From Rhizobiales bacterium dw_265 (GTDB lineage: Bacteria; Pseudomonadota; Alphaproteobacteria; Micropepsales; Micropepsaceae), in contig JAAVUU010000004.1 of the NCBI GenBank assembly GCA_018449595.1, positions 62,001 to 126,000 of the forward strand: 64,000 nucleotides of DNA, read 5' to 3'. The notes under the pieces are model-generated. The model ran no database searches, was not told where the DNA came from, and saw only the letters and a program-made list of their open reading frames with translations. This document shows positions 1 through 12,346 of this stretch, in pieces. Both the position numbers and the translations under genes were made by a program. The stretch's first letter is position 1. Every line of letters begins with the position of its first letter.

Positions 1-2
1 AT

Positions 3-68
3 GATGGCCGCTTCATGGATCAGAAGGCTGATCCCAAGCCCTTTAAAGGCGTCCGCAAGGAAGACTAA
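3..68 (+). CDS. C-terminal end of an unidentified upstream gene (partial)
   Basis: The window opens inside a reading frame that ends with TAA at 66-68, forty bases before uvrB. The visible tail is 21 residues and is polar and lysine-rich, ending in KGVRKED. That composition suits a soluble protein's C-terminus, but nothing identifies the family. The frame was chosen over frame 1, which also stays open to a stop at 76-78, because its residues look more protein-like; this is a weak argument. Confidence 0.35.
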   Translation, partial: DGRFMDQKADPKPFKGVRKED

Positions 69-107
69 AGTCGTTTAACCGGGCCGATTAAATCCTATAT
101 TCCTCCC

Positions 108-2477
<2,370 letters not shown>

Positions 2478-2553
2478 GTCACCCCGGGCATTCCCTCGAA
2501 AGCTTCTGAGACGCCCAGCCCTGACAATAAGGCTTAAGATCGTTGGCCAAATT

Positions 2554-2567
2554 GCTCAATTTTGAGC
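2554..2567. promoter_or_regulatory. Inverted repeat upstream of the ParA-like operon, possible operator
   Basis: GCTCAA-TT-TTGAGC is a perfect 6-bp inverted repeat in an AT-rich stretch 52 bases before the first gene of the island. A -10-like TATAGT lies at about 2580-2585 and a strong GGAGG ribosome site at 2610-2614. A role in autoregulation is inferred from placement only. Confidence 0.4.
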
Positions 2568-2618
2568 TATGTTGGTTCATATAGTTGCGTATTGGGAGGC
2601 AATATATCCGGAGGATAA

Positions 2619-3479
2619 ATGCCAGGCGGGAAAGTTATTTCCACACTAAACATGAAGGGCGGAGTCGGTAAAACGACGATAACCGCCCACGTCATGAGAA
2701 TCCTTTTCAATCAACATAAAAAAAAGATTTTGCTGGTTGATCTCGATCCGCAGTTCAATCTTACACAGTGCCTAAGAACGCGGGCCGCCTATGAAGCCTT
2801 AAAGAAGGCTAATAAAACTGTTTTTGCTGCGATGGAGCCCCCATCCGATGTGGGCTTATTCGACGTTGCGACGACCCATCACGCGCCGCCGGATGCAGAA
2901 TCGCTGGCAGTAAGGCTGTGGCATTTCAAAGATGGGTCAGCGCACCTTGACCTCTTGCCGGGCAACTTTGAGCTTGTGAAATACAGCCTAATTTCGGACT
3001 CGGGGAAATTGGCCGCGGTACAGAAAAGGTTTTTGCATTTTATTGCAAACGCTCGGCAGAAGTACGATTTGGTAGTGATAGACTGCAACCCTAGCAGTTC
3101 CTTTATCACCCTATGCGCTTTGCACGCATGCTCTCACATTCTTGTCCCTGTTAAACCAGATCGTTATTCGATGCTTGGTTTGGAACTATTGGCGGATTTT
3201 TTAGATCGGATACCAACTATCCATCCTAAACCAGAGATTGCCGTTCTGTTGAACGGAATACCTCGGACTAACTATGACCCATTTACTGAAAATGAGTTGC
3301 GTGCCCACCCTGTTTTCGGTCCAAAGGTGCTGACCAATAAGTTGAAAAAGTCGAAACTGCTGGAGGCGCACTCGGGTTACACTGGGTTCGCAACTGATAA
3401 ACCAGTTCCGTACCGAGCATTGCTCGCTACCGAAATTGGTGAAATAGCGAGTGAGCTTGTGCAGAAGTGGAACATCTGA
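2619..3479 (+). CDS. ParA/Soj-like ATPase, first gene of a three-gene island
   Basis: A 286-residue SIMIBI-class ATPase of the ParA family. The deviant Walker A K-GGVGKTT sits at residues 13-20, with its signature lysine. Walker A' is LLVDLDPQ (Asp41) and Walker B is LVVIDCNPSSS (Asp155). No DNA-binding N-terminal extension precedes the P-loop, so it resembles small ParA/Soj ATPases. No ParB or centromere-like repeat is present, and the next two genes overlap it, so plasmid-style partition is unlikely to be its job. Base composition is clearly more AT-rich than flanking uvrB and csp genes, with more AAA/AAT/TTT codons, which suggests horizontal acquisition. A strong GGAGG ribosome site precedes ATG 2619. 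A role as an ATPase switch for the downstream HEPN-like proteins is inference. Confidence 0.85.
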   Translation: MPGGKVISTLNMKGGVGKTTITAHVMRILFNQHKKKILLVDLDPQFNLTQCLRTRAAYEALKKANKTVFAAMEPPSDVGLFDVATTHHAPPDAESLAVRLWHFKDGSAHLDLLPGNFELVKYSLISDSGKLAAVQKRFLHFIANARQKYDLVVIDCNPSSSFITLCALHACSHILVPVKPDRYSMLGLELLADFLDRIPTIHPKPEIAVLLNGIPRTNYDPFTENELRAHPVFGPKVLTNKLKKSKLLEAHSGYTGFATDKPVPYRALLATEIGEIASELVQKWNI

Positions 3480-3952
3480 TGAAAGACCCAGCCGAGCAGG
3501 TCATACTTTTACTTGCTGCGTCAGGATTGACCGAGGACGATATCCATAGAGCAATCCGCGCTTTGGAAAGACTGGGCGCGTCCAGGACTACTGAAATTGT
3601 ATATCAGGCTCGCAAACGCATCCGAACTCTAGATTTCACCTTACTGAAGCAGAGTGCGCCATTAGCTCACTATTCTGCTGTGAATGACGACATCTATAGA
3701 CTGTTAATGTTGGAGGCAGGCTTAACTACCGCTGAAGCCGGATCACGCCTCTATCAGTCGATGAAGAGCAGTATGGGGAGACAAATGGCTATTCCGCCAT
3801 TTCGCCCTAAGCAAGGGTTCCGGACATGGCTTAGCCAAGTACTACAGAAAATCGCGCCCAGCGAAGTGCTACACCACGCAACTAAGGTGCGTAATGACGC
3901 AGTTCATCGCGGCACGAAATCTGACTGGCCGTTGCGAGATAGAGAAACGTGA
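3479..3952 (+). CDS. Unknown protein with a HEPN-type RxxxxH motif
   Basis: 157 residues, predicted mostly helical, second gene of the island. The start ATG at 3479 overlaps the stop of the ParA-like gene (TGATG); an in-frame GTG at 3467 is a possible alternative. Near the C-terminus is VRNDAVHRG: Arg138-Asn139-x3-His143, the Rx4-6H motif with a polar residue after Arg that marks HEPN-domain ribonucleases. The helical N-terminus (residues 5-55) has LxxxGLxEDDIHRAIRALE. HEPN proteins are common effectors in toxin-antitoxin, abortive-infection and CRISPR-associated systems; assignment here rests on the motif and its helical context only. Codon use is AT-rich like its neighbours. Tight coupling to both neighbours implies one functional unit. 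Confidence 0.6.
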   Translation: MKDPAEQVILLLAASGLTEDDIHRAIRALERLGASRTTEIVYQARKRIRTLDFTLLKQSAPLAHYSAVNDDIYRLLMLEAGLTTAEAGSRLYQSMKSSMGRQMAIPPFRPKQGFRTWLSQVLQKIAPSEVLHHATKVRNDAVHRGTKSDWPLRDRET

Positions 3953-4638
3953 GTGCCGCAGCGGAAGCTACCGCTTTGAAAGCAGCTGTTGACGCACATT
4001 ATGCTGCATCCCTGTCAGCCTACGTCGACAAAGTCACATCAGAAACAGATCTGCTGTTAAATTGGATAGATTATCTCCGCAAATCGGCAAAAAATAAAAA
4101 TGCTGTCCGGCTTTTAGATGCCGTTCAGGGCGCAATCATCGAAACGGCTGGCTGCTTATCTCTTGGCCTGGTTCGACCAGCAATATTTTCTGTACGGATT
4201 CAATTAGAATTGTTGGTTGCGTGGATTTATTTCGAAGACCACGCGGTCGAATGGTCTCGGATAGAAGGAGGGAAAGACTTTCCTATGCGATCCTTCTATC
4301 TGAAATACATGAGCGAAAATGGAAGCGAATTTTCTACTCGGATGAAGCTTTTAGAAGACAAAAGGCAGCGAAAGCATGCAGACCCTTACGGCATCCTTTC
4401 TGTATATGTTCATAGCACATCCCCTTACTCAGCCCCGCAGGTGGGCCCGCTCGCGGCCTTGGTGTTCCCGTCGGCAAAATGCGATGAATGTGTCGAGCTA
4501 CAGAGAGATGTCGCCGAGTACCTGACAGACATCTTGGCGGCATGGAACATTAGTAAATGGCATGATCTCCCTGAACTTATTAGGGCGAACATGACTGCTC
4601 GGCTGCCGCCGAAGGATTTGAGTAAGCTCTGTAGCTGA
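3949..4638 (+). CDS. Unknown alpha-helical protein, third gene of the island
   Basis: 229 residues, starting with a GTG that overlaps the previous stop by four bases (GTGA). The sequence looks all-helical: residues 55-97 form a hydrophobic stretch containing RPAIFSVRIQLELLVAW, and residues 147-155 carry YGILSVYVH followed by STSP. An LSxxVH pattern after a helical pair recalls HEPN-like DUF5677-type proteins, but the canonical RxxxxH is not present, so it may be an inactive partner, an antitoxin or a sensor. No signal peptide is visible and I do not recognise the family with confidence. The gene is AT-rich and closes the island; beyond it base composition returns to the genome's GC-rich style. 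No terminator is obvious after it. Confidence 0.6.
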   Translation: MSAAAEATALKAAVDAHYAASLSAYVDKVTSETDLLLNWIDYLRKSAKNKNAVRLLDAVQGAIIETAGCLSLGLVRPAIFSVRIQLELLVAWIYFEDHAVEWSRIEGGKDFPMRSFYLKYMSENGSEFSTRMKLLEDKRQRKHADPYGILSVYVHSTSPYSAPQVGPLAALVFPSAKCDECVELQRDVAEYLTDILAAWNISKWHDLPELIRANMTARLPPKDLSKLCS

Positions 4639-5061
4639 ATTCAATTGCAACGATAAAGCAGCAACTCTCGAACTCAACGTCAAACATTACAACTTATCCT
4701 CACGCTCCTGCGTCACTGTAGAATTCGCGCATGGCAAAGCGCGATGACGAAATATCAGCGGGCGGAGGAAGAGCGCGGACAGGCGCGCGTGGACAAAGGG
4801 GGGAGGCCCCCGAAAAATTCCCCGAAACGCCCGCGCCATTCCTGCCTTCGCGCCCTCGCCGCCGTGGCACAGCGCGATGCGGACAAGCCGCGCCGTTTGC
4901 TATTTCCCCGCATAAGGCGCATGACCCGCGTGCGACTGCCGCCAGACGAAGCGCCAATCCCGACCCGCACGTCTCCGCGCGCCTGGCCCAGCCCTCCCTA
5001 TCCGCCGTTTTCGCCGCCTGTGCATTCCGTGCGGGCGCATCTTTTTCAAAGGACTACACTC
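4639..5061. other. Gene-free interval between the island and the first csp gene
   Basis: About 420 bases without a credible gene. The first 90 are AT-rich and belong to the island's tail; composition turns GC-rich near 4720-4735, which probably marks the island's right edge. The open frames here (from 4731 and 4744) have no coding signature and only read into csp. A long 5' leader is usual for csp genes, and much of 4740-5061 may be such a leader. No clear direct repeat matches the left edge near 2480-2550. Confidence 0.5.
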
Positions 5062-5265
5062 ATGACCATCGGCACCGTGAAATTCTTCAATTCCTCCAAG
5101 GGCTTCGGCTTCATCTCGCCCGAGGGCGGCGCCAAGGATGTGTTCGTCCACGCCACCGCGCTGGAAGCCGCCGGCATGACCTCGCTCGGCGAAGGCGAAA
5201 AGGTGTCGTTCGACATCCAGCCCGACGCCAAGGGCTCCAAGGCCGTGAACCTGGCCCGCGCCTGA
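5062..5265 (+). CDS. Cold-shock protein, CspA family (copy 1)
   Basis: A 67-residue single cold-shock domain that binds single-stranded RNA/DNA and melts mRNA structure. RNP1 is KGFGFI (residues 13-18) and RNP2 is VFVH (27-30), both intact. AAAGGA lies upstream of ATG 5062. An in-frame open stretch reaches back to 4744 but is unrelated in composition, so the short form is chosen. It is the most divergent of three paralogues in this window (SSKGFGFISPEGGAKD, DIQPDAKGSK), the others being at 6081 and 8042. It has its own terminator at 5277. Confidence 0.95.
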   Translation: MTIGTVKFFNSSKGFGFISPEGGAKDVFVHATALEAAGMTSLGEGEKVSFDIQPDAKGSKAVNLARA

Positions 5266-5276
5266 TTTCCAATACC

Positions 5277-5312
5277 GGCGGCGGGGACATTCGTCTCCGC
5301 CGCCGCCTTTTC
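5277..5312 (+). terminator. Rho-independent-like terminator after csp copy 1
   Basis: A 12-bp stem GGCGGCGGGGAC / GTCTCCGCCGCC (one G-T pair) closes an ATTC loop and is followed by GCCTTTTCT. It begins 12 bases after the csp stop and precedes the gene at 5331, so it may attenuate rather than fully stop transcription. Confidence 0.75.
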
Positions 5313-5330
5313 TCCCACCCGAAAGGCCTC

Positions 5331-5678
5331 ATGCTGCACCGCCACCGCCGTCCCTTCGTTCCCGACGAGAAGCAGGAGGCCATCCTGCTGGACGAGCTGG
5401 TCGCCGTGCTGACACCGCATCCCGCCGGCCTGCGCCGCTGGTCGGTGATGAACGGCGTGCGCAAGGCCCGCCGCGCCGCCTCCCGCGACATTCCGCTGAA
5501 GCTGGAATCCGATGTCGAACGCATCTTCCGCCGCTTCTGCGCCAACGATGGCGCGCGCGATCCCGGAACGCAGCGCTTTTGCCGCCCGCCTGAAACCGCC
5601 GGCGAGGTCTGGGCCCTGAACCCGGCCTTTGTCGCCGACGATGCGTCTCCCGAACCATCCAGGGAAGCGGCGGAATAG
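5331..5678 (+). CDS. Conserved-looking hypothetical protein, 115 aa
   Basis: Starts at ATG 5331 with GAAAGG just upstream and ends one base before the next gene's ATG. The protein is rich in Arg and Ala, has no signal peptide or membrane segment, and contains a basic middle (NGVRKARRAASRDIPLKLESDVERIFRRF is split by Ile-Pro) that could contact nucleic acid. The N-terminal half DEKQEAILLDELVAVL is amphipathic helix. I recognise no family. Position directly behind the csp terminator and tight coupling to the next small gene suggest a small stress-linked operon. A minus-strand frame over the same bases is a mirror. Confidence 0.55.
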   Translation: MLHRHRRPFVPDEKQEAILLDELVAVLTPHPAGLRRWSVMNGVRKARRAASRDIPLKLESDVERIFRRFCANDGARDPGTQRFCRPPETAGEVWALNPAFVADDASPEPSREAAE

Positions 5679-5834
5679 ATGGCGCCCAGGCCCCCGAATT
5701 ATTCGCAGGACCGCCTGCAGCGCGAACGCGCCCAGGCCATCAAGACCCGCGAAAAGGCCGAGCGCCGCGCCGAGGAAAGCGCCCGCCGCAAGGCCGAAAA
5801 GACCGAAACCAAGCCGGATGACGGCGCGGCCTGA
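5679..5834 (+). CDS. Small highly charged protein, 51 aa
   Basis: Begins MAPRPPNYSQDRLQRERAQ and continues as an Arg/Lys/Glu/Ala-rich helix to the stop at 5832-5834. It starts at the base directly after the upstream stop codon, so it is translationally coupled. Short alphaproteobacterial proteins of this form (an N-terminal PPNYSQDR-like segment, then a charged helix) are common near cold-shock and ribosome-associated genes; the function is unknown. It lies in a different frame from the open reading frame that starts at 5629 and is easily missed because it is so short. Confidence 0.6.
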   Translation: MAPRPPNYSQDRLQRERAQAIKTREKAERRAEESARRKAEKTETKPDDGAA

Positions 5835-6080
5835 ATCCGGTCTTCGCAACCGCAAAATCCCTGCGCGCCGCGCGGTCATTGTTATTTAAGCCCAAATGGC
5901 CTATACAAAGCGCTCGTGGTTCTTGCGTCCTAAAGTCAGACGAAGCGCTTTCCGTCTATCCGACCCGCCTCACGGCGACAGGACGCACCGAAAATCTTCC
6001 CACCCGACCCGATGTTCTTGTTTCCACGGCCGTTCCCGCATTTCGCGTGGGCGGAACCCGATGCTCCCAAAGGAAATGTT

Positions 6081-6284
6081 ATGGCAATCGGAACCGTGAA
6101 GTTCTTCAATGCAACCAAAGGCTTCGGCTTTATCGCGCCCGATGGCGGCGGCAAGGACGTGTTCGTCCATGCCTCGGCTGTCGAAGCGGCGGGCATGCGC
6201 TCGCTCAACGAAGGCCAGAAGGTCAATTTCGACATCGTGCCGGACGCGCGCGGTGCCAAGGCGGCCAACCTGTCGGCTGCCTGA
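6081..6284 (+). CDS. Cold-shock protein, CspA family (copy 2)
   Basis: 67 residues with intact RNP1 KGFGFI and RNP2 VFVH. It starts at ATG 6081 with AAAGGA at 6069-6074. It is very close to copy 3 at 8042 (shared [33 protein letters not shown]), so these two look like a more recent duplication than copy 1. About 200 bases of leader between 5880 and 6080 have no gene, as expected for a structured csp 5' leader. Confidence 0.95.
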
Positions 6285-6293
6285 TTGAAAAGC

Positions 6294-6324
6294 CGGGCGG
6301 CGGTTTGCGCCGCCGCCCGATCTT
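6294..6324 (+). terminator. Terminator hairpin after csp copy 2
   Basis: A perfect 10-bp stem CGGGCGGCGG / CCGCCGCCCG with a six-base loop starts nine bases after the csp stop and is followed by ATCTTT. The short T-run makes it weaker than the one after copy 3. Confidence 0.7.
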
Positions 6325-6343
6325 TCAAGAAAAGGAAATCCTC

Positions 6344-6637
6344 ATGGATGACAACAATCCCTCTTTGAATCCTTCGCTGAATCCCTCCCTGGCCGCGCGC
6401 AAGCGCGACGCCGCCCAGCGCACCGCCAATGGCGTCTTCGCCGTCTGGGAAAAGCGCACCGCCCTGGTGAAGAACGAGATGGCCGCCGAAAGCGCCGCCA
6501 ACGACGCCAAGACCATCCGCCTCAAGGCCCTGCGCCTGGAAAAAGAAAAGCAGGACGCCGAAGCCGCCGCCATCGCGGCTGCCAACGCCCCCGCCCCTGT
6601 GCCGAAGAAGCGCGTCAAGCGCATTATCGCCGGCTGA
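6344..6637 (+). CDS. Small alanine/lysine-rich coiled-coil protein, 97 aa
   Basis: ATG 6344 follows AAAAGGA by seven bases. The N-terminus has a triple NPSL repeat (NPSLNPSLNPSL, residues 5-16) and then an Ala/Lys/Glu-rich helix through residue ~85 with a basic VPKKRVKRI tail. No signal peptide or membrane segment. The pattern suits a small coiled-coil or nucleic-acid-associated protein; I recognise no named family. It sits between a csp terminator and the Gre-type gene, 11 bases upstream of the latter, so the two may be co-transcribed. Confidence 0.6.
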   Translation: MDDNNPSLNPSLNPSLAARKRDAAQRTANGVFAVWEKRTALVKNEMAAESAANDAKTIRLKALRLEKEKQDAEAAAIAAANAPAPVPKKRVKRIIAG

Positions 6638-6648
6638 TCCGCGCTGCC

Positions 6649-7098
6649 ATGAGCCGCGCCTTTGTAAAAGAAACCGCTGAATCGGCGCCTCCGCCCGAAC
6701 GGATGGTTGACGACGGCCCCAACCTGGTGACGGCGGAAGGCCTTGCCGCCATCCACGCGCATGTCGCGCGCATTGAAGCCGCGATGCAGACCGAAACCAA
6801 TGTCCTGCTGCGCGAAACCCTGGCGCGCGACCTGCGCTATTGGGAAATCCGCCAGGCCTCGGCCCAGCTTGTGGCGCCCGCCCGCAACGGCACGGTCGCT
6901 TTCGGCTGCCGCGTCACCATCGCCCGCAAGGGCCGCACCCAGAATTTCCGCATCGTCGGGGTGGATGAGACCGACGCCAAGGGCCTGGTCAGCTTCCGCA
7001 GCCCGCTGGCGGCCGCGATCCTGGGCGCCCGCCCCGGCGATATCGTCGAGGCGCCCGCGCCGCTGGGAGAAATCGAGATTCAGTCCGTCGAAGACTGA
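6649..7098 (+). CDS. GreA/GreB-family transcription elongation factor
   Basis: A 149-residue protein beginning MSRAFVKE, the typical GreB-like start. Residues 28-80 form the predicted N-terminal coiled coil ([16 protein letters not shown]...[15 protein letters not shown]) that enters the RNA polymerase secondary channel. Residues 85-148 are the FKBP-like C-terminal domain ([38 protein letters not shown]). Gre factors rescue backtracked polymerase by stimulating transcript cleavage. The acidic coiled-coil tip is not clearly of the DEA type, so cleavage activity is uncertain. The next gene (tdk) converges on it with only a few bases between stops. Confidence 0.85.
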
Positions 7099-7105
7099 GG
7101 CGGCG

Positions 7106-7753
7106 TCAGCCGGCCCGCTTGGCGCGCAGCGGCACCGCCGCCACGGATTCATAGCAGGCGCGGCAGCGCACCTGGTATTCGCCGGCATCGCCCACCACCA
7201 GCTGCTCGGCGCCCGGTATGATGCGGTGGCTGATATAGCCATCGTCCGAACCGCAGACCATGCAGACGCCGGTCAGCTTCTCGACATGGTCGGCCATCGC
7301 CAGCAGTCCGGGAATGGGTCCGAAGGGCTGTTCGGTGAAGTCCATGTCCAGCCCGGCCACGATGATGCGCAGGTCGGACCTGGCCTTCTCGCGCAGCAAG
7401 CCGCGAATGGCGCGGCCGAACCAGCCCAGGCTGTCGCACATCGGCTCGTCCAGCGGGAAGAATTGCGCCTCGTCCACCGCCAGCACGTCGAACGCGCCAT
7501 CGGCGAGGTGCCGCGCGAAATCGGCGGCGTTGCGCACCATCAGGGCGGACAAGGTCGCCGTCACCTCGACGCTGCCGTCGGCATTCACCGCGCGGGCGGC
7601 GATGCTGCCCTGGGTGCGGGTATCATGCGCCGGCTTGAGGATACGCACCCGCTTCCTGGCATATTGCGCGCGATGCAACCGGGCGATCAGGCGTTCCGTT
7701 TTCCCGGAAAACATCGGCCCGACGATCACTTCCAGACGCGCGGTCATCGGCAT
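7106..7753 (-). CDS. tdk: Thymidine kinase (type II)
   Basis: Phosphorylates thymidine to dTMP in the salvage pathway. The P-loop is GPMFSGKT (residues 12-19), the catalytic/Walker B stretch VDEAQFF, the lasso region [11 protein letters not shown], and a C-terminal zinc site is made by CMVC and CRAC. The start at 7753 (MPMTARLEV) is chosen because GGGAG lies five bases upstream; the open frame extends 16 codons further without similarity to the family. At 215 residues it is of normal length. It converges on the Gre gene. Confidence 0.95.
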
Positions 7754-8041
7754 GCAACTCCCTTGGAACCACAACACATGGTGAATCGCGCCGGCCCGCA
7801 AGCCATGCTGCGGCGCAATCCACAGACGCCGCCGTCATGCTCCCTTTCTTGCCAATATCGGCCCGCGGGCGTAATGTCCCCCTCACGAGGCGTTACGGCC
7901 CGTTACAGTGAAGCGCACCTAGAATTCCCTGCCCGCCTTGAGTGCGCGCCTGGACGACGGTTGAACTTCCTTCCCTGCAACACCGTAAAGCCCCGCCCAC
8001 CCGGCATCCGCCGTATGGGAAAACCATGCAGGAACTGTTTA

Positions 8042-8245
8042 ATGACCATCGGAACCGTGAAATTCTTCAATACCTCCAAGGGCTTTGGCTTCATCGCGCC
8101 AGAAGGTGGCGGCAAGGATGTGTTTGTGCACGCCACCGCCGTGGAAGCGGCCGGCCTGCGCTCGCTGAACGAAGGCCAGAAGGTCTCGTTCGACATCGTG
8201 CCCGACGCGCGTGGCGCGAAGGCCGCGAACCTGAAGGCCGTCTAA
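8042..8245 (+). CDS. Cold-shock protein, CspA family (copy 3)
   Basis: 67 residues, RNP1 KGFGFI and RNP2 VFVH intact. ATG 8042 follows CAGGAA. It differs from copy 2 at only a few positions (for example NTSK for NATK, GLRS for GMRS). A 288-base leader separates it from the divergent tdk start; this stretch holds no gene and likely contains the csp promoter and leader. It ends in the strongest terminator of the three csp genes. Confidence 0.95.
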
Positions 8246-8266
8246 ACACGATCTGACGGTTTAGAC

Positions 8267-8303
8267 AAAGGCCCGGTGGAGCAATCCGCCGGGCCTTTTT
8301 CTT
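8267..8303 (+). terminator. Strong terminator after csp copy 3
   Basis: A 14-bp stem (AAAGGCCCGGTGGA / TCCGCCGGGCCTTT, one G-T pair) with a GCAA tetraloop is followed by TTCTTTG. It lies between two converging genes and may serve both strands, because the AAA on the left arm reads as TTT on the minus strand. Confidence 0.88.
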
Positions 8304-8360
8304 TGTCCATTACGCCGGAGCCGGGCGCCGGCCCGGCGTCAGGGCGCGCCACCAAAAAAA

Positions 8361-8813
8361 TTACTGCGCGGACGGCACAGCCGGACGCGCAAAGGCGATG
8401 GTGACTGTCTTCTGGGCGCCGCCGCCGCTGGTGGTGAAATTGGCGCTGTGCGCCCCACTTCCGGATGAACCACCGCTGCCACCGATCATGGCGGCGGTGG
8501 CGGTGTAGCGGCCTGCCGGCGCCTTGAACAGGATCCAGGGCGCATCGCAATCGGTTTCGACCAGGATTTGGTCGCCCCTGGCCAGGGTGATATGGGCATT
8601 GGCGAGATTGGCGCCGCCCGCCGTCGCCAGCACGATCTTCACCGGAAAAGCGCTCCAGCGCGGATCGTCCTTGGCCGAGCCGACCCCGGTGCAGACCACA
8701 TCCACCCCGTTCTGGCTGGTGGGGGTGTCCTGCACCGCCAGCGCCTGGCCGGCCATCATGACGGTGGCAAGGACGGAAACGGCGGCCGCCGCGGTCATCA
8801 CGAAAATGCGCAT
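8361..8813 (-). CDS. Secreted hypothetical protein, 150 aa
   Basis: An N-terminal signal peptide (hydrophobic AAAAVSVLATVMMAGQ, cleavage probably after ALA at residue ~26) predicts export to the periplasm. The mature part is beta-rich; a GRYTATAAMIGG stretch and ANAHITLARGDQ resemble a carboxypeptidase-regulatory-like beta sandwich. Two cysteines (DVVCTGVG, ETDCDAPW) could form a disulfide. A Gly/Ser-rich linker (SGGSSGSGAHS) precedes the C-terminal strand. Similar small secreted proteins occur in alphaproteobacteria but I know of no function. It is divergent from the SodC-like gene at 8918. Confidence 0.65.
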   Translation of the reverse strand: MRIFVMTAAAAVSVLATVMMAGQALAVQDTPTSQNGVDVVCTGVGSAKDDPRWSAFPVKIVLATAGGANLANAHITLARGDQILVETDCDAPWILFKAPAGRYTATAAMIGGSGGSSGSGAHSANFTTSGGGAQKTVTIAFARPAVPSAQ

Positions 8814-8917
8814 TGTTTAAATCTCCTTTGGCCACCCCGCCTGAAAGCGTACAGGCGGCAATCGGGTTCCACCCGCCCTGGCGCTATGGCAAGCTGACGC
8901 CGGCTTTTGGGGGCCTC

Positions 8918-9475
8918 ATGAAGAAATATGTGGTGCTGCTGCTGGCGCTTGGCCTTTGCCCGGCCCTGGCTGCCGGCAAGAAGGCCCATGCCGTCGCCCG
9001 CATGGCCGGGTTGGACGGCAAGTCCCTGGGCAGCGTCGAATTCAGCGCCGTCAACCGGGGCGTGCTGATCGTGTTCGACCTTCACGACCTGCCGCCTGGG
9101 CCCCATGCCATCCACCTGCACACCTCCGCCAATTGCGACGCCAAGTCGGGCTTCACGGCGGCGGGGCCTATCCTGACATTGGTCCCCGGCAAACAGCATG
9201 GCTATCTGGCGGAGGGCGGCCCGGAAGCCGGCGACCTGCCCAGCCAGTTCGCGGACGCCGACGGCCACCTGCATGCCAGCGTCATCACCAACAGCTTCAG
9301 CCTGGGCAACGGCAAGAAGTCCATTTTCGACAAGGACGGCGTCGCCATCATCGTGGACGAGCGGGGCGACGACTACCGCACCCAGCCCCTGGGCAATGCG
9401 GGCAACCGCATCGGCTGCGGCGTGGTGATACGGACGGTGGGACCGGCCGCGCGCCACAGGCGCGCCATCAAATAA
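8918..9475 (+). CDS. Cu/Zn superoxide dismutase-like protein with missing metal ligands
   Basis: A 185-residue exported protein (signal peptide to about residue 19, ALAAG) with the SodC fold. The copper loop HAIHLH keeps His66 and His68, the zinc-loop His94 (QHG) and Asp106 (GDLPS) are kept, as are the active-site Arg164 and the disulfide cysteines 73 and 167 (GNAGNRIGCGV). Aligned by eye to classical enzymes, however, the bridging His is Ile85 (AAGPIL), the zinc His is Glu103 (GPEAGDL) and the fourth copper His is Asp147 (IVDERGDDY). It therefore probably does not dismutate superoxide in the usual way; metal binding, a copper-only or structural role are possible. ATG 8918 was chosen for its signal peptide. 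Confidence 0.8.
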   Translation: MKKYVVLLLALGLCPALAAGKKAHAVARMAGLDGKSLGSVEFSAVNRGVLIVFDLHDLPPGPHAIHLHTSANCDAKSGFTAAGPILTLVPGKQHGYLAEGGPEAGDLPSQFADADGHLHASVITNSFSLGNGKKSIFDKDGVAIIVDERGDDYRTQPLGNAGNRIGCGVVIRTVGPAARHRRAIK

Positions 9476-9562
9476 GCGCCGGAAGCGCCATAAACCGTAA
9501 CCCCGTCAAGGGCTTTCCAGCTTTAGGTTGCGAAGACGGGATGGGAGGGGGTAACAAAACCC

Positions 9563-12346
9563 ATGGGTCTGGAAAAACCGCAAACCCTCGCCCTACGCGA
9601 GTTGATAGACGCCGACGCCCTGCGCCGCGACCTGACCGCCATGGCCAAGGCGGCCGGCGGCGATCCCGGCAATCTGCGCAAGGAGGGCCTGGCCCTGATC
9701 AAGCAGGCTTTCCTGGCGGCCCGCGAAAAGGTCAAATATTCCGTCGAAAAGGAGGGCCTGCCCGGCCTGGCCGCCGCCCGCGCCCTGTCGCAGTTGCAGG
9801 ACACCATCATCCAGGTGATCTACGACTTCGCCGTCAAGCATGTCTATTACGCCCAGAACCCGTCCAGCGCCGAGCGCATCTGCGTGGTGGCGACCGGCGG
9901 CTATGGCCGGGGCGAACTGGCGCCGGGCTCCGACATCGACCTGTTGTTCCTGCGCCCCTTCAAGCAGACCGCCTGGGGCGAAAGCGTCATCGAGTTCATC
10001 CTCTACATGCTGTGGGACCTGGGGCTGAAGGTCGGCCACGCCACCCGCAGCCTGGCCGAAAGCGTGCGGCTGTCCAAGCTGGACATCACCATCCGTACCG
10101 CGGTGCTGGAAGCGCGCTATCTGTGGGGCGACCGCGGGCTTTTCGAAGAGCTGCGCAAGAAATTCTGGAACGAGGTCACCACCGGCAATGGCCGCGACTT
10201 TGTCGAAGCCAAGCTTAACGAGCGCAACCAGCGCCATGCCCGCCAGGGCGAAAGCCGCTATCTGGTCGAGCCCAACATCAAGGAAGGCAAGGGGGGCCTG
10301 CGCGACCTGCAGACCCTCTACTGGATCGGCAAGTATCTCTATCATGCCGACGACGCCGCCGACCTGATCGAGCACGGCGTCTTCACCCGCGACGAATACC
10401 GCACCTTCCAGAAGGCGGAAGCCTTTCTGTGGAATGTGCGCGTGCACCTGCATTATCTGCTGGGGCGCGCCGAGGAACGGCTGTCCTTCGACGTGCAGCC
10501 GCTGCTGGCGGCGCAACTGGGCTACAGCGACCCGGAAAAGCCGCGCCGCGCCGTCGAGGCCTTCATGCGCGCCTATTTCCTGGTGGCCAAGGATGTCGGC
10601 GATCTCACCCGCATCTTCTGCGCCGCGCTGGAGATGCAGCACAGGAAGCCGCGCCCCTCCCTGCGCCGCATGCTGCCGGGCTTTCTCAAGCCCCGCAGCC
10701 CCGGAGACGATTTCTATGTCGAGAATGGCCGGCTGACCGCCAATCCCGCCATCTTCCGCGCCGATCCCGCCAACATCCTGCGCATGTTCCATATTGCCGA
10801 CATCAAGGGCGTGGACATCCATCCCGATGCCCTGCGCACGGTGACCCGTTCGCTGGACCTGATCACCGATGCCGTGCGCCACAGCCCGGTCGCCAACCAG
10901 GCCTTCCTGGAAACCCTGACCTCCCGCCAGGACCCGGAACGGGCGCTGCGGCTGATGAACGAGGCCGGCGTGCTGGGGCGTTTCGTTCCCGAATTCGGCC
11001 ATGCCGTGGGGCTGATGCAGTTCAATATGTACCACCATTATACGGTGGACGAGCATCTGATCCGGGCGGTGGGCAATGTCGCCTCGATCGAGCGCGGCGA
11101 GCACAAGGACGACAATCCCCTGGCGACCGAAGTGGTGCGCCGCATCCAGTCGCGCAATGTGCTGTATTGCGCCATCCTGCTGCATGACGTGGCCAAGGGA
11201 TTGCCGGGCGACCATAGCGATGTCGGGGCGGAGATCGCCCGCAGCCTGTGCCCGCGCCTGGGGCTCTCGGCGAATGACACCGCCGCCGTCGCCTGGCTGG
11301 TGAAAAACCATCTGGTGATGAGCGATACCGCCCAGCGCCGCGATGTCTCCGATCCCAAGACGGTGCGCGATTTCGTGGACATGGTGCAGTCGCCCGAAAT
11401 GCTGCGGATGTTGCTGGTCCTGACGGTGGCCGACATCCGCGCCGTCGGTCCCGGCGTGTGGAACGGCTGGAAGGGCCAGTTGCTGCGCGAACTGTATTAC
11501 GCGGCCGAGAACATGATGACCGGCGGCGACCAGTCGCCGGGGCGCAGCGCGCGCGTCGCCGCCGCCAAGGCGGCGCTGGAAGCGCGGCTGGGCGACCTGG
11601 CGCCCGAACTGCGCGAGAAGGCGCTGTCGCGCCACTATGACCATTACTGGCTGGCCTTCGACACCGACGAACTGGAACGCCACGCCCGGCTGATGATCAA
11701 GGCCGATGCCGAGAACCAGCTGCTGACCCTGGCGGCCGACACCAATAAATTCCGCGCCGTCACCGATGTGATCGTCTATACCCCGGACAATGCCGGACTG
11801 TTCTCGCAATTCGCCGGCGCCATCGCCATGTCGGGCGGCTCCATCGTGGACGCCAAGGCCTTCACCACCAATGACGGTTTCGCGCTGGACGTGTTCTCGG
11901 TGCAGGACCAGGACGGCGAGGCCTTTGCCGACAGGGAACGCCTGCAGCGCCTGACCCAGTCCATCGAAAAGACCCTGCGCGGCGAACTGCGCCCGGGCCA
12001 GCAACTGGCACGCAAGGCGCAGAAGACCAAGGCCAGCGCCTTCAGCATCCGCCCCAAGGTGCATTTCGACAATGAAGCCTCGCGCATCGCCACGGTGATC
12101 GAGGTGGAATGCCTGGACCGGCCGGGCCTGCTCTATGACGTGACCCAGGCGATCTTTGAATCGGGCCTCAGCATCTCCACCTCCATGGTGGCGACCTATG
12201 GCGAACGCGCCATTGACGTTTTTTATGTGCGCGACGGCTTCGGCCACAAGATCAGCCAGCCGGCGCGGCTGGATGCGGTGGAAAAGCGGCTGCGCGCCGC
12301 GCTGGCGCCTCCGCCCCTTGAAGTGCCGCAGCCTGCCAAGGCATAA
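9563..12346 (+). CDS. glnD: Protein-PII uridylyltransferase/uridylyl-removing enzyme
   Basis: The bifunctional nitrogen sensor that uridylylates PII proteins when glutamine is low and removes UMP when it is high. The nucleotidyltransferase motif [19 protein letters not shown] is near residues 112-130, followed by the helical GlnD domain. The HD domain has [13 protein letters not shown]. Two C-terminal ACT domains (from about residue 735 [17 protein letters not shown], and from about 835 [15 protein letters not shown]) bind glutamine. 927 residues is the normal alphaproteobacterial length. The next gene, trpS, begins seven bases after the stop; the lipid II flippase gene murJ, often found between glnD and trpS in this class, is not here. 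Confidence 0.97.

Follow-up and report, generated by a model that had tools for sequence, protein, structure and literature searches.

Three overlapping open reading frames, at 2619-3479 (286 aa), 3479-3952 (157 aa) and 3949-4638 (229 aa), were found in the window (the whole stretch of 64,000 nucleotides analysed), with overlaps of 1 and 4 bases. Upstream of gene 1 lies uvrB (108-2477) and downstream of gene 3 a cold-shock gene near 5061, both identified by eye; three closely spaced csp (cold-shock) genes were seen by eye between 5061 and 8250. The sequence GGAGG stands immediately 5' of the gene 1 ATG. In 500-base windows fully within the cassette, G+C ranged from 0.47 to 0.51, as against 0.60 to 0.69 in those fully outside it within positions 1-12000. 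The tight overlap of the genes, the AT-richness relative to the flanks and the strong GGAGG start, all pointed out in a previous sequence-only reading, were thereby confirmed. Since homologous modules with the same gene order occur in Bordetella, Xanthomonas, a Rhodanobacter MAG and viral contigs, the three genes are, by sequence comparison, more than chance ORFs.

An inverted repeat that had been placed in the promoter was also found (GCTCAA-TT-TTGAGC, positions 2554-2567, 6-base arms, no strand assigned, upstream of gene 1) and is possibly an operator. As evidence it is weak, because 115 of 2000 shuffles of the 141-base gap held as many such repeats as the two observed there.

The 3' side of uvrB (2478-2618 in the window, loci L191-L199 in relatives) showed variable G+C and differing cargo within this genus. 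Of the 12 same-genus uvrB loci retrieved, six (the window's own included) allowed a scripted read-through of uvrB. Downstream of uvrB, G+C in the genus ran from 0.49 to 0.63, and one relative carried a Schlafen AlbA_2 protein there, while in another family of the same class a cassette of the type found at locus L064 lay directly behind uvrB. This variability of G+C and cargo, together with the L064-type cassette, makes the region behind uvrB a likely insertion hotspot. No phage gene was recognised by eye among the ORFs of 1-9000; the window copy sits between uvrB and a cold-shock gene and, over that span, in no recognised prophage or prophage immunity region.

Gene 1 and the ParA tree

Gene 1 (2619-3479, plus strand) encodes a ParA/AAA_31 ATPase of the SIMIBI type (Pfam AAA_31, E 1.5e-30) with the Walker A motif KGGVGKT, called RemA-like here from its position. 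Genes 2 and 3 had no ParB family match in Pfam, PADLOC or NCBIfam, and inspection by eye of the interval from gene 3 to csp showed no ParB-like ORF, in agreement with the earlier description of a ParA/Soj-type ATPase without ParB. When aligned with the ATPase of a Gifsy-1-like prophage (L126), 72 of 225 positions were identical (32%; BLASTP E 5e-24).

A tree of 76 ParAs was rooted at its midpoint, and the program warned of long branches, a TIR-fused row among them. One group (support 95/90) brought together 62 of the 63 cassette ATPases, including that of the window, and the one TIR-fused ParA. Outside it fell the other 13 rows: partition-type ParAs, a small number without assignment, and the ParA of L044, whose locus nonetheless has the cassette layout; the ParB-type label of the L063 row was assigned without view of its neighbour gene. 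Homologues of the ATPase sitting with parB, which the sequence-only reading had named as an argument against itself, were seen by eye only for ParAs outside the cassette group.

The seven rows of the window clade were joined with the TIR-fused row at a support of 100/100, and without it at 88/33. In this TIR-fused protein (L065:5422-6729), a TIR-like domain (TIR_2, E 2.3e-4, below the Pfam cut-off) is fused N-terminally to ParA, and the next downstream gene lies on the opposite strand. In one subgroup of cassettes (L033, L038, L046, L049), the ParA Walker A motif reads KGGVCKT instead of KGGVGKT.

The ParA identity of gene 1 and its KGGVGKT motif would also suit a partition or segregation system of a mobile element, made up of ParA, a small protein that binds the centromere and one further factor; phage copies were named ParA partition proteins by annotators or PHROGs, and gene 2 weakly matches HTH-type DNA-binding folds. 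This explanation is nevertheless quite unlikely, as the cassette ParAs grouped apart from the partition-type ParAs, partition is unneeded for a chromosomal copy such as that of the window or for the several phage copies beside integrases, and phage titres rise when the Salmonella relative is deleted (PMC9879122).

Distribution of the cassette

Scans of viral contigs with ParA queries gave 45, 32 and 80 loci, with many contigs repeated, and complete cassettes were found by script at 30 of 45, 31 of 32 and 72 of 79 new loci. The loci lacking a scripted complete cassette include repeated contigs, contig ends and ParB-type ParAs (by eye). The layout was defined as a ParA followed by a protein of 85-215 aa and one of at least 170 aa, with length limits varying slightly between scripts; it was present in 149 entries, window copy and repeats included, or 63 non-redundant ones (gene 3 <80% identity). 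The family ranged over E. coli, Bordetella, Xanthomonas, a Rhodanobacter MAG and Fusobacterium, as well as phages of Lactobacillus, Lactococcus and Streptococcus. By eye, several of the copies in phages or prophages adjoin integrases or lie near prophage terminase genes. The cassette is conserved and mobile.

Cassette DNA was matched in 201 of 5426 complete E. coli genomes, in 16 of these over at least 80% of the cassette; among the matches listed, the remainder covered only part of the ATPase gene. A ParA with two hypothetical genes was present in all four E. coli chromosomal regions viewed; three of these regions belong to prophages, and the fourth adjoins a type I RM system and DarTG. Each of the three records viewed out of 186 low-identity E. 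coli records holds the whole cassette. The type I RM/DarTG neighbours in E. coli and the location of many homologues in prophages or islands favour a role in phage defence.

Other loci showed particular neighbours. At L064:8062-13439 the cassette adjoins genes for an AAA-type protein and for one of 1355 aa that weakly matches NACHT (E 0.0014), which suggests a defence island. At L009:5317-7538 (S. meliloti psymA), a SIR2-like and then a HerA-like gene (by eye) follow a ParA and a small gene; the SIR2 gene was considered as an exchanged effector and dropped, the adjoining HerA-like gene (by eye) indicating that it probably belongs to a separate defence system.

A search with window gene 1 found one viral contig encoding a ParA 53% identical, with relatives of genes 2 and 3 behind it in the same order (31% and 38%). 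The search with a two-row gene 3 alignment retrieved Bordetella hinzii, Xanthomonas hortorum, a Rhodanobacter MAG and another viral contig, and that with a six-row alignment two more relatives. ParA, gene 2 and gene 3 followed one another in each clade relative except L011, at a contig edge, and the order was the same in L006, L012, L013, L014, L016 and L022. The ParA of L022 is interrupted by the contig end; in L013 (Xanthomonas hortorum; 5818-6393) the ParA start is apparently missing and genes 2 and 3 are intact. Some 3 kb away from the Bordetella copy is the gene of an AAA_15 ATPase that weakly matches OLD-TOPRIM.

Gene 3 was found in none of 95 other genomes of the order and gene 2 in none of 397 other genomes of a phylum sample; clade gene 3 was likewise absent from 368 other genomes in the class of L012 and from 296 others in the family of L013. 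Window gene 3 matched nothing in genome contigs or plasmids, window gene 2 nothing in plasmids, and Bordetella gene 3 nothing in plasmids or phages, while the Bordetella cassette DNA had no match in E. coli genomes. This patchy distribution resembles that of mobile defence genes. The same patchiness, with gene 3 missing from the order and gene 2 from the phylum sample, could also befit a degenerate or domesticated remnant devoid of defence activity, but that is very unlikely, the three frames being intact, with their overlaps and ribosome-binding site, and the conserved residues being retained.

Genes 2 and 3 and the HEPN-like fold

Gene 3 (3949-4638, plus strand) was predicted to encode an all-helical HEPN-like protein (pLDDT 90.3, pTM 0.87), and it reads LSVYVH as reported earlier for an alpha-helical partner. 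The model, built from a nine-row alignment, was compared with 698 structure chains. Its best matches include 2q00 (Z 7.0), the sacsin HEPN domain 3o10 (6.9), 1ufb (6.8) and HEPN 1o3u (6.8), followed by HEPN 2hsb (6.5), HEPN 4nqf (6.4) and the HEPN homologue 1wol (6.3); 1ufb and 2q00 are presumably HEPN structures too. The HEPN matches span 111-135 residues, and their modest Z of 6.3-7.0 stays below the level excluding chance helical bundles; unrelated gp41 five-helix bundles reached 6.2-6.5. Csm6 chains and HEPN toxins scored 4.7-5.5. Foldseek alone gave E-values above 0.5 for gene 3, and against a viral library it returned no significant match for the gene 2 or the gene 3 model, so that these models could not be tied by structure to phage gene 3. 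Gene 3 had no Pfam match at E 1 and no convincing NCBIfam or PADLOC family, the PADLOC search giving a weak Csn2 match (E 0.0098 over 42 residues).

R83 and H155 were invariant in all nine clade gene 3 rows, with E or D at position 87; H98 and E101 were also invariant, and Y147 was absent in L044. The canonical HEPN motif is Rx4-6H, of which no conserved pair was seen by eye in the nine-row alignment. In the gene 3 of the main family (55 sequences), the corresponding R and H were conserved at 100%, the E at 98% and the Y at 85%. In the window (Y147/H155) as in L126 (Y134/H142), the tyrosine precedes the histidine by eight positions, and the window clade and the main family have R-x3-[ED] ... 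Y-x7-H in common. The shorter R-x3-[ED] ... H occurred in 63 of 63 gene 3 representatives (shuffled mean 14, maximum 23), a descriptive figure for a pattern written after the sequences were seen.

Gene 2 (3479-3952, plus strand) was modelled as a small all-helical protein (pLDDT 83.9, pTM 0.53) with a C-terminal RNDAVH, whose Arg138 and His143 fit Rx4-6H. These two residues were the ground on which it had been called the HEPN protein. They are present, but the assignment was not supported: no HEPN chain was among the 46 matches listed for the gene 2 model, the best being weak and of HTH type (POU/XRE/DdrC, Z at most 5.4), and neither a Pfam family at cut-off nor a PADLOC or NCBIfam match was obtained.

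The sequence-only reading amounted to a toxin-antitoxin-like unit, with gene 2 as HEPN toxin, gene 3 as its partner and the ATPase as regulator. Its RNxxxH is kept in seven of eight clade gene 2 proteins, and the gene 2 of L064 carries MRNELAH; the motif is however lost in L016 and was seen in only 2 of 56 gene 2 representatives outside the clade, and the HEPN-like fold as well as the invariant R and H belong to gene 3, making such a unit unlikely. In the main family, gene 2 mostly has an S-R pair instead (91% and 95% of 55 sequences). The HEPN-like role in the cassette most likely falls to gene 3 and not to its neighbour. Gene 3 is therewith a candidate HEPN-like ribonuclease, in what would be the RemN position, and gene 2 a candidate adaptor or sensor in the putative RemI position.

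RemAIN and other known systems

On the grounds of gene content, ATPase kinship, predicted fold and motif, the window cassette was interpreted as a mobile three-gene system of phage defence (prophage competition) of the RemAIN type, with a probability of roughly 0.7. The pairing of a ParA-type ATPase with a HEPN-like protein for defence, as first conceived, is largely supported, with the effector moved from gene 2 to gene 3 and the system no longer a nameless one. In the proposed mechanism, the gene 1 ATPase, probably on DNA, would silence the HEPN-like RNase of gene 3 together with the gene 2 protein; phage replication would shift this ATPase/gene 2 complex, and the released gene 3 product would cleave tRNA, halting translation so that no phage progeny is made, as in RemAIN. 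The regulator RtcR responds to RNA ends of the type made by such RNases, and its dependence on the Salmonella region fits the mechanism proposed.

Somewhat tentatively, ParA-type ATPases may also be seen as a general class of defence switches which, like STAND ATPases, gate exchangeable effectors (HEPN-like RNases, a TIR-like domain), in which case the window clade, with gene 2 as a sensor of its own, would be distinct from RemAIN and not a copy of it. Under the preferred RemAIN-type reading, ParA ATPases, known as DNA movers, probably serve in phage defence to control an RNase, a TIR-fused form existing alongside, and R83, E87 and H155 of gene 3 are the residues to test family-wide.

The RemAIN system was reportedly described by Sargen & Helaine in 2024. 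In Gifsy-1 of Salmonella Typhimurium strain 14028s, it corresponds to STM14_3218 (840 bp, ParA-like, no ParB), STM14_3219 (309 bp) and STM14_3220 (663 bp), which are needed for activation of the RNA-repair regulator RtcR; deletion of the three-gene region abolished this activation and increased Gifsy phage titres 2- and 4-fold (PMC9879122). STM14_3218-3220 were identified as remAIN, which blocks the lytic cycles of resident and incoming phages and, in strain LT2, left phage FO1 unrestricted (PMC12724215). RemAIN has been classed as a tRNA-targeting system and RemN as a HEPN nuclease (PMC12409363). The earlier remark of knowing no named system with this gene set was not borne out, RemAIN of Salmonella Gifsy-1 having the same layout (PMC9879122, PMC12724215, PMC12409363).

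Another prophage ATPase of the ParA/AAA_31 type, GiPD474 from Gifsy-1 of S. Typhimurium 4/74, confers phage resistance; unlike the window cassette, it consists of one gene alone, which by its published coordinates encodes 361 residues and includes an additional domain of unknown kind, and it is described as lacking partner genes (PMC12724215). The gene 3 of L064 weakly matched DUF5677 (PF18928; E 0.0022, below the Pfam cut-off) around its R-x3-E region, unlike window gene 3, which lacks any Pfam match at E 1. Genes 1, 2 and 3 of the phage cassette L028 belong to PHROG 164 (ParA-like), PHROG 6264 and PHROG 7540 (the last two of unknown function), while window gene 3 and genes 2 and 3 of L006 had no PHROG match at E 0.1. 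PADLOC-DB 2.0.0 gave no convincing match for cassette genes 2 and 3. A term search did not find ParA in the main texts of Vassallo 2022 (PMC9519451) and of the DefensePredictor paper (PMC13092281), the literature searched did not cite the accessions of six cassette proteins from E. coli, and the part of PMC12626290 consulted added nothing on the cassette.

The cassette of the Gifsy-1-like prophage L126 comprises genes of 840, 393 and 663 nt, with an internal start in the second that gives 309 nt, and follows P-, O-, cII- and repressor-like genes (by eye). It was taken to be remAIN, because its gene lengths and neighbours match those published for STM14_3218-3220.

The window-clade genes 2 and 3 had no significant match to those of the main family in HMM searches with 1129 decoy ORFs, a few of these 'decoys' being relatives themselves, nor with hhalign, and the clade gene 3 HMM gave a ParA a higher score than it gave any gene 3 of the main family. 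What links genes 2 and 3 of the window to those of RemAIN is their placement within the cassette, their size, their fold class and a handful of residues. Like RemAIN, the window operon consists of a ParA-type ATPase without ParB, a small protein and a protein of about 220 aa; the ATPases are homologous (32% identity to the L126 copy), and the effector would be of HEPN type, its third place in RemAIN being deduced from the window fold and the name RemN. On the other side, genes 2 and 3 of the window have no significant sequence similarity to those of RemAIN, the window copy lies behind uvrB with no recognised prophage, and its gene 2 has RNxxxH where that of the main family mostly has the S-R pair. 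Taken together, these comparisons make the window cassette probably a distant relative of RemAIN rather than a brand-new defence system. The passages on RemAIN in PMC9879122, PMC12724215 and PMC12409363 concern Salmonella only, and the cassette family found here extends more widely.
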